Part shown: piece after piece, positions 46,823 to 52,693 of the stretch | Numbering within the stretch: the stretch's first letter is position 1 | Layout: each line of letters begins with the position of its first letter | Origin: Acidimicrobiales bacterium mtb01 | Lineage (GTDB): Bacteria; Actinomycetota; Acidimicrobiia; Acidimicrobiales; Ilumatobacteraceae | NCBI GenBank assembly: GCA_004379135.1 | Contig: NBNI01000007.1 | Coordinates: 1-64,000, forward strand | Length of the DNA stretch: 64,000 nt | Direction: 5' to 3' | The notes under the pieces: generated by a model | Database searches by the model: none | What the model was told of the DNA's origin: nothing | What the model saw: only the letters and a program-made list of their open reading frames with translations | Made by a program: the position numbers and the translations under genes

Positions 46823-48084
46823 CTCTGTATCGCCAGTTCCGCGACGAGATGATGGCGGGCGGGGCCACCGAGGAGAAGCCCGATCAACCCGGTGGTGCGA
46901 CACGCACCGCTTTGGTCTCCGGAGTCGCGATCCTCGGACTGCTCGTCTGGCTCGGCTTCAGCAATCCGTGGAGTCTGTTGCTGGTCGCCGGCCTTCTCGT
47001 CTCGATCTTCCTTCACGAGGTGGGGCACTTCGTGACGGCCGGGTGGGCGGGTATGAAGCGCACCCAGTTCTTCATGGGTTTCGGCCCGCGTCTCTGGAGC
47101 TTCCGGCGCAACGGTGTCGAGTACGGCGTTCGCGCGTTGCCGCTCGGCGCGTTCGTGCGCATCGTCGGCATGAACAACCTCGATCCGGTCGAAGCGGGCG
47201 ACGAGTCGCTCGCGTACACATCGAAGCCGTATCGGTGGCGCATGCTGGTCATCACCGCCGGCTCGATCATGCATTTCATCATCGCCATCGTGCTCCTGGT
47301 GTTCGTGTACACGGTGGGCGGTCGCTTCCAGGCCACGGGCGAGACGGTCGTGACCGGCGTGGCGCCGTCCTCGCCGGCGGCGGCGGCCGGACTCCGTGAC
47401 GGCGACGTGATCGAACGGGTCGACGACGTGGTGGTTGTCGAGCCGTCGGATCTGCGCAACTACGTGCGTTCGCGTTCGGCCGGTGACACCGTGACCGTGG
47501 TCTGGTCGTCCGGAGGCGTCGAGAAGTCGGCCGACATCACCTTGGCGCCGGTCGACTCGGGCACCGCACCCGGCTCCGACGATTCGGCGCAACCGGGCTT
47601 CTTGGGAGTGGGCACCGACAACTTCGCGCGCGAGCGACTCTCGGTTCCCTCGGCTCTCGGACACGTGGGTGGCGATCTGGCCGACAGCGTGTGGGCCACG
47701 TTCGAAGGCATCGGCACGGTGGCCAATCCGTGGAACCAGTGGGATCAACTCACCAACGAGGACGCCGATCCCACCAAGCGACCCACCACGGTGGTGGGCA
47801 TCACGATGGTGGCCGGTGACATCGGCGAAAGTTTCGGCTTCTACGCCGTGATGGAGATCCTGGCGTCGGTCAACGTGTTCGTCGGCATCTTCAATCTGCT
47901 GCCGCTGCTGCCGTTCGACGGGGGCCACGCGGCCATCGCCACCTACGAGCGCGTGCGATCGCGGCGCGGTCGGCAGTATCGCGCCGACGTCGAGAAGATG
48001 TGGCCGCTCACCGTCGCGGTCGTGACGCTGCTCATGTTCCTCACGTTCACCGGCCTCTATCTCGACATCACGCGCCCCTTCTGA
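46819..48084 (+). CDS. rseP: RseP-type site-2 intramembrane zinc protease
   Basis: Cleaves anti-sigma factors or other proteins inside the membrane. The 421-residue protein has the zinc motif HEVGH at residues 66-70 in a hydrophobic span, one PDZ domain (about 168-250), and the second active-site motif LLPFDGGH in a later span. About 30 polar residues precede the first span. Four transmembrane segments fit the family. The dxr-rseP-ispG order is the conserved actinobacterial one. Confidence 0.95.
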   Translation: MTLYRQFRDEMMAGGATEEKPDQPGGATRTALVSGVAILGLLVWLGFSNPWSLLLVAGLLVSIFLHEVGHFVTAGWAGMKRTQFFMGFGPRLWSFRRNGVEYGVRALPLGAFVRIVGMNNLDPVEAGDESLAYTSKPYRWRMLVITAGSIMHFIIAIVLLVFVYTVGGRFQATGETVVTGVAPSSPAAAAGLRDGDVIERVDDVVVVEPSDLRNYVRSRSAGDTVTVVWSSGGVEKSADITLAPVDSGTAPGSDDSAQPGFLGVGTDNFARERLSVPSALGHVGGDLADSVWATFEGIGTVANPWNQWDQLTNEDADPTKRPTTVVGITMVAGDIGESFGFYAVMEILASVNVFVGIFNLLPLLPFDGGHAAIATYERVRSRRGRQYRADVEKMWPLTVAVVTLLMFLTFTGLYLDITRPF

Positions 48085-48102
48085 AACACTGATTCGACAG
48101 CC

Positions 48103-49329
48103 ATGAACGCTCTCCGTTACCCCCGCCGACCCACCCGCCAGATCATGCTGGGCAAGGTCCCCGTCGGCGGCGACGCACCCATCACGGTGCAGTCGATGAC
48201 CATCACCAAGACGGCCGACGTCGAGGGAACACTGCAGCAGATCTATGCGCTGGCCGCGGCTGGTTGCGACATCGTTCGGTGCACGTGCAACGAGATCGAA
48301 GCCGCCGAGGGTCTCGCGCAGATCGTCCCGCGGTCGCCCATTCCGATCGTCGCCGACATCCACCATCAGTACAAGATGGCGCTGGCCGCGATGGAAGCTG
48401 GGGTGCACGGGCTCCGCTTGAATCCGGGCAACATCCGACGCCCCGAGCACATCAAGGCGGTGGCGTCCGAGGCGCGCGATCGCCGTATTCCGATCCGAAT
48501 CGGTGTCAATGGCGGATCGCTCGATCCCGAGCTCTACGACAAGTACGGCGGCAAGGTCACACCCGAGGCGATGGTCGAGTCGGCGCAGCGCGAGATCGCG
48601 TACTTCCAGGAGGTCGACTTCGACCTCATCAAGATCTCGGTGAAGGCATCCAACGTTCCGCTGATGGTGGAGGCGTATCGGCAGTTGAGCGAGGTCACCG
48701 ACCATCCGCTGCACGTCGGCGTCACCGAGGCCGGGCCGCCGCCGGCGGGTCTGGTGAAGGCGACGGCCGGAATTTCCACGCTTCTGCTCGAAGGCATCGG
48801 CGACACGATCCGCTACAGCCTCACGGCCGATCCGGTGGAGGAGGCGCGCGCGGGTCGTCAGTTGCTCGAGGCCTTGGGGTTGCGCGAGCGCAAGAACGTC
48901 GACCTGATCGCGTGTCCGAGTTGCGGGCGGGCCGAGATCGACGTGATCGACGTGGCCAAGCGGGCCATGGATGCGTTCGGCGATCGCAAGATTCCGCTGC
49001 AGGTCGCGGTGATGGGTTGCGTGGTGAACGGCCCGGGTGAGGCGCGCGAGGCCGACCTCGGAATCGCGGCCGGCAACAAGCGCGGGCACTTGTTCGTGAA
49101 GGGTCGCAACGTGGCGGTCGTTCCCGAATCGGAGATGGTTGAGGCGCTCGTCGAGTGGGCCGAGTTCATCCACGAGCACGGGACCGAGGCGGCCATGGCG
49201 CGGGCGGATGTCGAGAAGGCCGAACGCGAAGCGGCCAAGGATCGTTCGGCGTTGCTCGACGCCAAGGGCGACGACGCCAACGACTCCACCTCCAAAATCG
49301 TCGAAATCCGCCGCCGTTCTGGTGACTGA
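48103..49329 (+). CDS. ispG: (E)-4-hydroxy-3-methylbut-2-enyl-diphosphate synthase
   Basis: IspG is a [4Fe-4S] enzyme of the MEP pathway. The 408-residue protein has the TIM barrel N-terminus (ITVQSMTITKTADVEGTL, VADIHHQYKMAL, RLNPGNI) and cluster cysteines in ACPSCGR and MGCVVNGPGEA. A charged tail of about 35 residues follows the conserved core. The last codons and the stop (GGT GAC TGA) lie inside the left inverted repeat of the element at 49317-49796, so that element defines the present C-terminus. Confidence 0.97.
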   Translation: MNALRYPRRPTRQIMLGKVPVGGDAPITVQSMTITKTADVEGTLQQIYALAAAGCDIVRCTCNEIEAAEGLAQIVPRSPIPIVADIHHQYKMALAAMEAGVHGLRLNPGNIRRPEHIKAVASEARDRRIPIRIGVNGGSLDPELYDKYGGKVTPEAMVESAQREIAYFQEVDFDLIKISVKASNVPLMVEAYRQLSEVTDHPLHVGVTEAGPPPAGLVKATAGISTLLLEGIGDTIRYSLTADPVEEARAGRQLLEALGLRERKNVDLIACPSCGRAEIDVIDVAKRAMDAFGDRKIPLQVAVMGCVVNGPGEAREADLGIAAGNKRGHLFVKGRNVAVVPESEMVEALVEWAEFIHEHGTEAAMARADVEKAEREAAKDRSALLDAKGDDANDSTSKIVEIRRRSGD

Positions 49330-49362
49330 AAGTCACCGTATAGGTGACGAACTCGCACCAGA
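49317..49362 (+). repeat. left inverted repeat with nested hairpins
   Basis: Contains GGTGACT-GAA-AGTCACC (49321-49337) and, overlapping it, GTCACC-GTATA-GGTGAC (49332-49348); only one of the two stems can form at a time. It includes the stop codon of ispG. Confidence 0.9.
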
Positions 49363-49394
49363 TTCCCTCGACTCCTCAGTGTGCACGAGGCGAA

Positions 49395-49697
49395 TCAGTC
49401 GAATGACGTCCAGTTGCTGAATCGCATCGGAACCTCAGCCGACTTCAAAAGGTCGATGACATCGGCCGCGAGCGTTTCGCGGATGAAGGTGCTCAATTCG
49501 ACATCGCCGGGCACCGTGAGCAATTCGCGAACCAGGGGGAGTTGAGCGCGGTCGATCGTGTAGCACCACTCGTAGGTCGACGAGCCGAAGAACCGTCGAA
49601 CGGTCGACCCGGTGTCTTCGCCACGGATCACGAGGTTGCCGGCCGGATCGATGGCCACGGTGGTGCATCGGCGATCGTCGCCTTCAGTGGCACCCAC
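49395..49697 (-). CDS. small unrecognised protein inside the inverted-repeat unit
   Basis: GTG 49697 is preceded by AAGGAGG with a five-base spacer, the strongest evidence that this 100-residue frame is translated; an upstream TTG (49739) is less likely. The protein has no signal peptide or membrane span. It begins VGATEGDDRRCTTVAID, then alternates hydrophobic and acidic residues (LVIRGEDTG, EWCYTIDRAQLPLVRELL, STFIRETLAADVIDLLKS) and ends FSNWTSFD. The look is that of a small alpha/beta conserved hypothetical protein. I recognise no domain and assign no function. Confidence 0.7.
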   Translation of the reverse strand: MGATEGDDRRCTTVAIDPAGNLVIRGEDTGSTVRRFFGSSTYEWCYTIDRAQLPLVRELLTVPGDVELSTFIRETLAADVIDLLKSAEVPMRFSNWTSFD

Positions 49698-49750
49698 ATG
49701 AACCTCCTTCGTCGACTCGTGAACGATCGAGAGCGGCAATCATGTGCGTT

Positions 49751-49796
49751 TCTGGTGCGACTTCGTCACCTATACGGTGACTTTCAGTCACCAGAA
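49751..49796 (-). repeat. right inverted repeat
   Basis: Inverted copy of 49317-49362 with one mismatch, including both nested hairpins. It begins 7 bp beyond the stop codon of manA, so manA transcripts read into the same sequence as ispG transcripts. Confidence 0.9.
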
Positions 49797-49803
49797 GCAC
49801 GGG

Positions 49804-50937
49804 TCAGGGTTCGGTGGTGCGGAAGAGGGTGGCCTTGCCGGTGAGGGTCAACTCCTCGCCCTTGCGCAAAAAGCACACTTCACCGCGCTGCAACCGATCG
49901 GTCGACCCGACCCCGCACATCGTCAACTCGCGAGCCCGGGCCCGGATGGTCTCGGTTCCGTCGATCTGGTGCACGAAGAACTCGAACGGAGCCCCGGGTG
50001 TCGGATACCGCCACAGCCGTCCGGCCGCCGTGCGCGCCACCGACTCGGCCCGCACCACCGGATCGGCCAGCGGCGACGGATCGACCGTCGCCAGCAACTC
50101 GTTCACGTCGACGTGCTTGTTGGTGAGCCCGCACCGAACCACGTTGTCGGAAGAACCCATCACCTCGACCCCCATGCCCGACAGGTACGCGTGCAGGTTG
50201 CCGGGTCCTAGATAGAGCGCCTGACCTGGTTCGAGCACCACGTGGTTGAGGAGCAACGTGGCGGCCACGGCTGGATCGTCGGGGTACGCGCGAGCCAACT
50301 TCACGACCCAGCGCGCGCTCGCCGAATCGTGTTCGGCACAGGCCGCGATCACGTCGTGCAGCACGGGTTGGAATTCTTCGCCGCCGGTGAAGATGAATTG
50401 GATCGTGTGGGCCAGATCGTGATCGGCCAACAAGGTGGCGATCGTGGAAGCCCCGCCTCCGATGTCGTGCAGGAAGTCGACGGTCTCGGTCGGATCGCGG
50501 AATCCGCACAATGCCTCGAACTTGCCGAGCGCGCAGATCAACTCGGGTTTGGCGAACGGGTCGCGGTAGATGCGTCGCGAGTTGCTGACGGGAACCGCGA
50601 GACGGTTCTCACGGGCGTAACCGGCTTGCGCCTGGGCGAGCGACGGGTGGGCCTGCAGCGACAATGGCTCGGCCGCGGCGAGGAACTTCACCAGGAACGG
50701 CAACTCGCCGGCCACCGACACCAGCGGCGACGACAGGCCGTTCGTCTCGTCGATGGCCGAATGGGTCCGCTCGATCACCGTTTCGTCGATGTCGAGGATG
50801 CGCGACGGGCCGCCCAGGTGCGTGCCGAACCACAACTCGGCCCAGGGGCGGCCGTCGGGTTCGATGCCGAGCAACTTCGGTATGGCCGACGCATGTCCCC
50901 ACGCGTAGTGCTGGACGACGCCGCGAACGAGTCGCAT
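49804..50937 (-). CDS. manA: mannose-6-phosphate isomerase, type I
   Basis: Interconverts mannose-6-phosphate and fructose-6-phosphate for mannose-containing glycoconjugates. The 377-residue protein has the zinc-site segments ELWFGTHLGGPS, LSLQAHPSLAQAQAGYARE and KPELICALGKFEALCGF, and the sugar-site region PGNLHAYLSGMGVEVMGSSDNVVRCGLTNKHVD. ATG 50937 follows the proS stop after one base, so both are cotranscribed. manA is not a usual member of this gene neighbourhood. Confidence 0.95.
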   Translation of the reverse strand: MRLVRGVVQHYAWGHASAIPKLLGIEPDGRPWAELWFGTHLGGPSRILDIDETVIERTHSAIDETNGLSSPLVSVAGELPFLVKFLAAAEPLSLQAHPSLAQAQAGYARENRLAVPVSNSRRIYRDPFAKPELICALGKFEALCGFRDPTETVDFLHDIGGGASTIATLLADHDLAHTIQFIFTGGEEFQPVLHDVIAACAEHDSASARWVVKLARAYPDDPAVAATLLLNHVVLEPGQALYLGPGNLHAYLSGMGVEVMGSSDNVVRCGLTNKHVDVNELLATVDPSPLADPVVRAESVARTAAGRLWRYPTPGAPFEFFVHQIDGTETIRARARELTMCGVGSTDRLQRGEVCFLRKGEELTLTGKATLFRTTEP

Positions 50938-50938
50938 G

Positions 50939-52693
50939 TCAACTCCGACAGGTAGCGACCAGCGCGTCGACGACGTCGCCCACCGGCACGTCGCGGCGAT
51001 CACCGCTCTTGCGGTCGCGCACCTCGACGACACCGTCGGCGAGGCCTTTGCCCACCACGACGATCGTCGGCACGCCGAGCAGCTCGGCGTCCTTGAACTT
51101 CACGCCAGGAGACACGTTCGATCGATCGTCGATGAGCACGCGCACCGCGCGGGTCTCGAGAGCGGCGGCGATCTCCTCGGCCTTGGCCGCGACGTCGTCA
51201 CCGCCCTTGCCCGCGATCACCAGATGGACGTCGGCCGGCGCGACTTCCCGAGGCCAGCAGAGACCGATGTCGTCGCACGACGCCTCGGCGATGGCGGCCA
51301 CGGCGCGCGACACGCCGATTCCGTACGAACCCATCGTGACGACGACCTGCTTGCCGTTCTGATCGAGCACGGTGAGATCGAGCGCCTCGGCGTACTTGCG
51401 ACCCAACTGGAAGATGTGGCCGATCTCGATGCCACGGGCCATCTCGAGCGAGCCGGGGCACTGCGGGCATCCGTCGCCCGCACGCACCTCGGCGGCCTCG
51501 ATTGCTCCGTCGGCCGTGAAATCGCGGCCCATCACCAGATTCACGACATGTCGACCGGGCTCGTTCGCACCAGTGACCCAGCGCGTTCCGTCGACGACAC
51601 GCGGGTCGACGAGATAACGAATGCCGTGCGCGGCACCGAGCGCACCGGGTCCGATGTAGCCCTTCTTGAGTTGCGGATGCTTCGCGAAGTCGTCGTCGGT
51701 GAACGCCTCCGGCTCGGCCGGACCCACCTGTGCTTCGAGGCGCTTCATGTCGACGTCGCGATCGCCGGGCACGCCGATCGCCAGCGGCTCGCGCGTGCCG
51801 TCGGGATGGCGCAGCATCACGATGACGTTCTTCAACGTGTCGGCCGCGGTCCAAGCGCGGTCGCCGCGCGCGAGCTCGGGTCGCGCGTTCAACAAGTCGA
51901 CGAGCGTGGCGATCGTGGGCGTGTCGGGAGTGTCGTGGACCTGCGCGGCCGGAACCGCCGACGCGTCGACCGCGGAAGGCACCGGAACGTTGACGGCCTC
52001 GGTGTTGGCCGCGTAGCCGCACGAACCGCAACGCACGAAGGTGTCCTCGCCGACCTCGAGCGGTGCGAGGAACTCCTCGCTCTTCGAGCCGCCCATCGCC
52101 CCCGACATGGCCGAGACGATCACGTACGGGAGACCGAGGCGATCGAAGGTGCGGATGTACGCGGCGCGGTGCGCGTCGTACGACGCGGCCAGACCAGCGT
52201 CGTCGATGTCGAACGAGTACGAATCCTTCATGACGAACTCGCGACCGCGCAGCAGGCCGGCCCGCGGACGGGCCTCGTCGCGGTACTTCGTCTGGATCTG
52301 GTAGATCGACAGCGGCAGGTCCTTGTACGACGAGTAGAGGTCCTTCACCAGCAGGGTGAACATCTCCTCGTGCGTCGGCCCCAGCAGATAGTCGACTCCG
52401 CGCCGGTCCTTCAGGCGGAACAGGTTGTCGCCGTACTCGGTCCATCGGTTGGTGGCCTCGTACGGCTCCTTCGGCAGGAGAGCGGGGAAGTGGACCTCCT
52501 GGAATCCGGCCTTGTTCATCTCGTCGCGCACGATGTTCTCGACGTTGCGGTACACCGCCCAGCCGAGCGGCAACCAGGTGAATCCACCGGGGGCGGCGCG
52601 GCGGATGTACCCGGCCCGGACGAGCAGCTGGTGGCTCGGCACCTCGGCGTCGGAAGGGTTCTCACGCAGGGTGCGGACGAAGAGAGTCGACAT
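50939..52693 (-). CDS. proS: prolyl-tRNA synthetase (bacterial type)
   Basis: Charges tRNA-Pro. The 584-residue protein has class II motif 2 ([27 protein letters not shown]), an insertion editing domain between motifs 2 and 3, motif 3 ([14 protein letters not shown]) and the C-terminal anticodon-binding domain ([24 protein letters not shown]). A cysteine pair CGSCGY lies at the start of the insertion. ATG 52693 is used; TAACCT (52710-52715, minus) sits 16 bp upstream. It diverges from the rimP-nusA-infB operon. Confidence 0.97.

Follow-up and report, generated by a model that had tools for sequence, protein, structure and literature searches.

Two copies of a dispersed palindromic repeat flank a small gene between ispG and manA

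The ispG-manA locus

The window, i.e. the whole stretch of 64,000 nucleotides that was analysed, contains ispG and a manA-like gene that face each other, with a small gene and two inverted repeat arms between them (Table 1). The Pfam families found for the neighbours were GcpE (IspG), phosphomannose isomerase type I and a class II tRNA synthetase with an editing domain. The arms (positions 49317-49362 and 49751-49796) are 46 nt long, 98% complementary and separated by 388 nt. Their core, GTCACCGTATAGGTGAC, was found twice in the window at up to three mismatches, compared with 0.08 matches expected in shuffled sequences. An earlier note on this DNA had described nearly perfect inverted ends, the left one supplying the ispG stop codon and the right one lying 7 bp past the manA stop, and these observations were confirmed. 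The left arm reads TCT GGT GAC TGA up to the end of the ispG ORF at 49329, and the manA ORF ends at 49804, 7 bp from the right arm. The IspG C-terminus is ...RRRSGD in the window's genome versus ...RRRSS in two relatives, G011 and G001.

Folding also bore out the two overlapping hairpins attributed to each end. Each arm can form either a local hairpin, GGTGACT-GAA-AGTCACC, or a long one in which TCTGGTG pairs with CACCAGA and GTCACC with GGTGAC, and these foldings are mutually exclusive. No U-tract follows the two repeat units (search of positions 48000-51500, in which the sole site lies elsewhere and is within chance). Defined as a GC-rich stem followed by a U-tract, an intrinsic terminator is not what the window's units represent.

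Table 1. Features of the ispG-manA locus (positions in the window)
Feature	Position	Strand	Remarks
ispG (GcpE family)	48103..49329	+	Last codons and stop TGA within the left unit
Left repeat unit, L-5-R form	49318..49362	+	L toward ispG
Left unit, L half	49318..49337		
Left unit, spacer	49338..49342		GTATA
Left unit, R half	49343..49362		
Small gene, 100 residues	49395..49697	-	GTG start, AAGGAGG upstream; resident gene
Right repeat unit, L-5-R form	49751..49795	-	L toward manA
Right unit, R half	49751..49770		
Right unit, spacer	49771..49775		
Right unit, L half	49776..49795		
manA-like gene, phosphomannose isomerase type I	49804..50937	-	ORF, Pfam

The single enclosed gene with a good ribosome site, also reported in the earlier note, was recovered as a frame scored as coding by a codon-usage caller, which picks an upstream TTG start. 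Among the 100 genomes searched, G011 and G015 have one homologue each, at 32% identity. Both homologues adjoin ispG in the same convergent arrangement, with no repeats, and by our own reading G001 retains a truncated remnant. There is no second copy in the window's genome, and no match was found in the genomes of the genus other than G011 and G015. On these comparisons, the small gene is older than the repeats at ispG-manA. It evolves fast, since the ispG identities for the two genomes with homologues are 98% and 91%. All three proteins (window, L031 and L032) nevertheless harbour the motifs GSS-x-YEW and, at the terminus, W-x-SFD. No Pfam, NCBIfam or PADLOC family was found for the small protein, and no relative of it in viral contigs; its G011 homologue has a PhoB-like match far below the cut-off. 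Folded as a single sequence, the protein gave a mean pLDDT of 58.

A repeat family at gene 3' ends

A search for the end sequence in the window's genome (G000; 2.56 Mb, seven contigs) showed that it recurs many times. The inverted arms are two copies of a dispersed, multicopy repeat, with no gene cassette. The repeat unit is a palindrome of about 45 bp, TCTGGTG-N8-TCACC-N5-GGTGA-N8-CACCAGA, and aligned G000 copies read CCTGAGGA-L-GYATA-R, L being the 20-nt sequence TCTGGTGACTGAAAGTCACC and R being GGTGACGAAGTCGCACCAGA. In G000, L gave 41 listed matches, 36 of them exact, while its reversed control gave 0; two of the 41 are opposite strands of one place, so that the copies number 40. Every listed copy of L sits in a palindromic unit. 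The genome has 31 asymmetric units of the L-5-R form and four loci with L-5-L' palindromes, and at C2:247262 L closes on itself as a 23-nt hairpin. At five loci, L-5-R units form close pairs, R to R and 17 to 40 nt apart, in which, by our own reading, TTC always comes after one R and AA after the other. The two units of the window obey this rule despite the 388 nt between them. Elsewhere in the genome units also occur singly.

The two halves differ in uniformity. Over 580 positions each, L has one mismatch and R has 34 when two variant copies of the 31, a duplicated pair, are set aside; with the variants included the counts are 7 and 36, of 620 each. The uniformity of L is not a probe artefact, because a search independent of L in the fetched G000 stretches and the window returned 35 framed units, 33 with L and two that are the variant pair. 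This count equals that of the genome-wide frame search for G000. The variant units (L106; C4:27922 and 30433) are identical, with the inner sequence ACCAGAAG, and lie 2.5 kb apart within near-identical flanks, apparently as parts of a larger duplication. An exact 19-mer of L had no match in viral contigs. Public genomes gave three, of which a single Aquimarina contig holds two, with identical flanking sequence, and a Rhodoferax contig one. These matches have no CACCAGA half by eye and, according to our own arithmetic, are about what chance yields in 257 billion bases; they were rejected as family members.

To delineate the family, 149 genomes were searched for the frame at up to three mismatches. 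G000 has 35 places, G001 20, G011 20, G012 12 and G015 26, and G004, G008 and G014 have one place each with two to three mismatches. None was found in the other 141 genomes, and the reversed control gave 0 throughout. In the relatives, the inner 8-mers of the frame are different. A covariance model, for which 47 of the units seen were chosen, matched in 13 of the 24 genomes of the genus and weakly in one of 37 others (G072); its counts include both strands, and the places listed in both searches are the first ones per genome. A second clade (G006, G008, G010, G017 and G018) keeps both the 45-bp frame and its TCTGGTG/CACCAGA ends, with a centre that is different again, of TTCTTCA- or GTTGCG-like types. 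By eye, the feet of the units are CCTGAGGA-like in G000, mostly CGGTGT-like in G001, G011, G015 and G012, and GTGAT-like in the second clade. A larger palindrome, AAATC(C/T)CCC...GGGGGATTT, surrounds the units in L213 (G018:C24) and L217 (G010:C250) and may be one more composite form.

The units are placed behind genes. Of 92 elements in five genomes, 86 could be classified with our own codon-usage gene caller, the other six being at the edge of a stretch or having no gene on one side: 48 are convergent, 29 tandem and 9 divergent, compared with 12, 34 and 12 gene pairs in the window. For G001, G011, G012 and G015, these counts cover only the 56 elements in fetched stretches, not all copies. 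The 77 convergent or tandem elements have a median distance of 9 nt to the nearest facing gene 3' end, and 71 of them are within 30 nt, including 14 overlaps. The second clade has 22 convergent, 10 tandem and 2 divergent placements, also with a median distance of 9 nt, among 34 rows in which one place (G006 C103) is listed twice. Furthermore, the units are oriented: a facing gene 3' end lies within 30 nt on the L side of 24 of the 31 asymmetric G000 units and on the R side of seven, and L is nearer the gene end in 22, R in four. For four of the 31, our gene caller places no facing 3' end within 120 nt of either side. By our own reading, L (TCT GGT GAC TGA) holds the stop codon of five genes, ispG included, and CTGAGGA that of eight. 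The opposite orientation of the window's two units follows from ispG and manA facing each other.

Some arrangements stand apart. At C1:528447 and C1:849324 (L091 and L094), the unit lies behind a hairpin with a U-rich tail that is common to the sister genomes (by eye), and at C2:186271 (L098) another hairpin, with no clear U-tail, is on the R side of the unit, again also in sisters (by eye). In L175 (G011:C213:1900-8800), same-strand genes of 393, 433 and 490 codons each have a unit exactly 12 nt behind the stop, as though genes and repeat had been duplicated together. Three to four units stand in a row with a spacing of about 1 kb in L157, L171, L100 and L193, a stretch kept in G000, G001 and G011 and partly in G012.

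Shared sites, turnover and stem pairing

Flanking sequences match between genomes at many element loci. One flank set used 19 of 34 prepared flanks, and those 34 leave out seven of the 41 L matches. Ten G000 sites were compared with 20 same-site elements of other species, using 34 of the 36 G000 elements of the placement analysis. At least one flank is homologous at each site, often both, and at some only one matches. As these loci were fetched because the relative had a unit, they carry no information on the frequency of shared sites. The mean difference among G000 units is 5.07 of 45 positions, compared with 13.9 to same-site units of other species and 14.2 to any unit of those species. In G000, inner sequences agree with one another rather than with those at corresponding places in relatives. 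For G001 and G011, the differences are 4.2 at the same sites versus 8.1 otherwise (10 sites), a comparison by which their same-site units still show descent. We infer that the copies at old sites in G000 were replaced wholesale in place.

Of the 16 G015 elements examined, five have a G000 counterpart at the same place, against 0.24 expected if about 2400 ends, an assumed number, are equally likely. Conversely, 14 G000 regions were compared with G011 and/or G001, of which three were occupied, ten had no unit and one was unmatched. The occupied regions (D, K2 and M) are so in both relatives, M by a decayed version. Neither the G011 nor the G001 stretches compared contain a unit for regions A, B, C, F, I, J and N; E has none in G001, H none in G011, and K none at that place in G011, the G001 stretch spanning one side only; region G is the unmatched one. 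The unit at site A, absent from G001 and G011, is present in G015 and G012. Thus, losses occur alongside gains. Alignments of occupied and empty sites revealed, by eye, no clear target-site duplication of the kind expected for a MITE.

At ispG-manA itself, ispG was matched in the 23 other genomes of the genus, and none of the 22 that are readable past its end has a unit. G021 is readable for 310 nt only, and in G012 the contig stops early. Loose pattern matches in G016 and G023 lie inside the next gene and, by our own reading, are not palindromic. Since the gap is unit-free in these 22 genomes, the two units were most likely gained in the G000 lineage. With its many genomic copies and the gap empty in relatives, the repeat behaves as a spreading element. 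Of the earlier proposal of a non-autonomous element with a passenger gene, mobility with no transposase of its own thus fits, and a single two-ended element does not. That note reasoned that an end sequence found only here and conserved in place would argue against mobility; this is not the case at ispG-manA, and other family members are kept in place across species.

We then considered the stem. In G001 and G011 (28 units), it is near-perfect with paired changes: covariation amounts to 27 two-sided cells versus 7.6±2.3 in shuffles, with 0 of 500 shuffles as high. No such signal was found among the 26 units of G015 and G012, whose inner arms are mostly unpaired. The asymmetric G000 units have an internal loop, and their L half alone is a 7-bp hairpin. 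Over 200 pairs of same-site G001/G011 stems, there are 10 two-sided swaps, one one-sided change between standard pairs and 10 changes that involve a non-pair. Rfam analyses of five loci gave four matches, none reaching the gathering score; in L092 and L158, three of the four are hits of the palindromes to generic hairpin (microRNA) models.

Related systems and possible explanations

The search for a parent transposon consisted of the PF01797 and TIGR02249 signatures. No Y1/RAYT transposase (PF01797) was detected in the 24 genomes of the genus, compared with matches in 5 of 14 controls. This absence is not proof, because only seven of the 24 genomes are at least 90% complete with at most 5% contamination. 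The integron integrase (TIGR02249) had no match above cut-off in the 24 genomes, and weaker matches were found as in all 14 controls. Integron attC sites, also found in CALINs, are folded imperfect palindromes behind ORFs, with conserved outer boxes, and our units are likewise folded palindromes behind ORFs with conserved outer ends. However, the host genes here are syntenic in relatives devoid of units and are not cassettes. On both grounds, membership of the attC class was rejected.

The closest kind appears to be that of the REP/REPIN elements, in a variant without their usual transposase. According to PMC3733652, REPs are found downstream of genes, beside both 3' ends where two genes converge, and as pairs in opposite orientation; GTAG REPs often provide a TAG stop, and CGTC REPs have no dedicated transposase. 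Our family has the same locations (77 of 86 elements convergent or tandem), forms opposite pairs, can provide a stop, in this case TGA, and resembles the CGTC class in that no dedicated transposase was found. It also corresponds to a dispersed extragenic palindrome of 20-40 bp, slightly longer at 45 bp and in tens of copies. No GTAG or CGTC tag is present at the foot by eye, gtag occurring by chance in a single second-clade copy (L199). The word actinobacteria does not occur in the text of PMC3733652. In REPINs, described in PMC3116915 (also PMC8049555 and PMC6006769), the outer parts are conserved, the centres vary with compensatory changes, and RAYTs are present. The likeness extends to the symmetric, intergenic, multicopy hairpin, conserved outside and variable inside (PMC3116915), with compensatory changes that we found in G001/G011 and not in G015/G012. 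In contrast, the core here is 45 bp rather than the 71- or 110-bp REPIN segments given there, the ends conserved across the genus are about 7 nt, the copies number only tens, G000 fixes one 20-nt half far more than the other, and no cognate RAYT was found in the genus. The family thus behaves like REP/REPIN elements, but the defining tag is absent and no Y1 transposase was found in the 24 genomes, many of them incomplete.

DNA uptake sequences also have species-specific dialects (cf. PMC3630211, PMC2346458), and their closely spaced complementary copies can form terminator hairpins (PMC2267715). They number hundreds to thousands, however, compared with tens of copies here, and the listed L copies are all in palindromic units; this candidate was set aside on copy number. 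For MIRU as a possible analogue, nothing useful was found in the open-licence literature, nor was a description there of such a repeat family for this group.

Many copies, a 45-bp frame, placement after stop codons, inner sequences specific to each lineage and compensatory changes in two species characterize the family. As the probable explanation, we take both arms to belong to one family of short palindromic repeats, found in a single genus, that sit at gene 3' ends, are copied through their hairpins and have a role at mRNA 3' ends. The unit would form the 3'-terminal portion of the mRNA of the gene upstream, where the L half would fold and protect or end the transcript. Copies would spread to new gene ends and overwrite older ones; the copying would use the hairpin, by template switching with short-tract conversion or by some other enzyme, and proceed without the RAYT transposase that serves REP elements. 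In this manner ispG and manA would each have gained one unit. In the passenger-gene reading of the earlier note, the small gene would be carried by a transposon-like cassette bounded by 46-bp terminal inverted repeats. This reading has the geometry at this one place in its favour and is hardly tenable: each arm is a complete unit at the 3' end of its own gene, units are single elsewhere, and the small gene is single-copy and has homologues in place in G011 and G015 with no repeats. A wholly selfish element of the REP/REPIN kind, tolerated at gene ends and moved by an as yet unrecognized enzyme, is conceivable but on the unlikely side. The ten regions without a unit in G011 or G001, the new copies at ispG-manA in G000 only and the habits of REPs described above agree with it; the failure to find a Y1 transposase among the 24 genomes and the orientation of L toward the stop codon do not. 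The places shared by several species, G015 in particular, also speak against it. In this reading, and as a reservation about the gene-end family too, those places may be hot spots for insertion rather than sites inherited from an ancestor.

Two further explanations concern the putative hairpins at mRNA 3' ends. Bidirectional terminators kept by selection, repeated since one good hairpin was copied, would account for the convergent placement, the 9-nt distance, the stable hairpins and their compensatory changes. Nevertheless, the window units have no U-tract, and selection on hairpins alone leaves unexplained a near-invariant 20-nt sequence in G000 that differs from those of its sister species. 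Moreover, some copies follow other terminator-like hairpins, two of them U-tailed, so that termination is not needed there and is an insufficient account; we regard this explanation as quite doubtful. The two-sided terminator island of the earlier note thus retains its 3'-end hairpins and loses plain termination. Pairing of the stem might instead be a by-product of template switching during replication, i.e. palindrome correction rather than structural selection, a mechanism proposed in PMC8794818. The 10 two-sided swaps against one one-sided change are what it would produce, and covariation is therefore not proof of RNA function. We find this quite possible while leaning slightly the other way; it addresses pairing only and leaves the TCTGGTG/CACCAGA ends, the placement and the homogenization across loci unexplained. 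A further, unlikely reading is that each carrier genome has its own inner hairpin as a gene-end dialect, which a co-evolving factor would recognize in DNA or at mRNA 3' ends. A change of dialect in the G000 lineage would then have rewritten dozens of copies in place, old sites included, by a sequence-specific, non-HUH copy-over.

These results show that what looks convincingly like an 'inverted-repeat cassette' may consist of two gene-end repeats independent of each other. REP-like repeats are usually attributed to a resident RAYT; here a family persists in a genus in which no such enzyme was found. As the family is homogenized in one genome, at places that can be matched between species, it is now testable how short dispersed repeats stay alike within a bacterial genome, and whether gene-end repeats are parasites or 3'-end signals.
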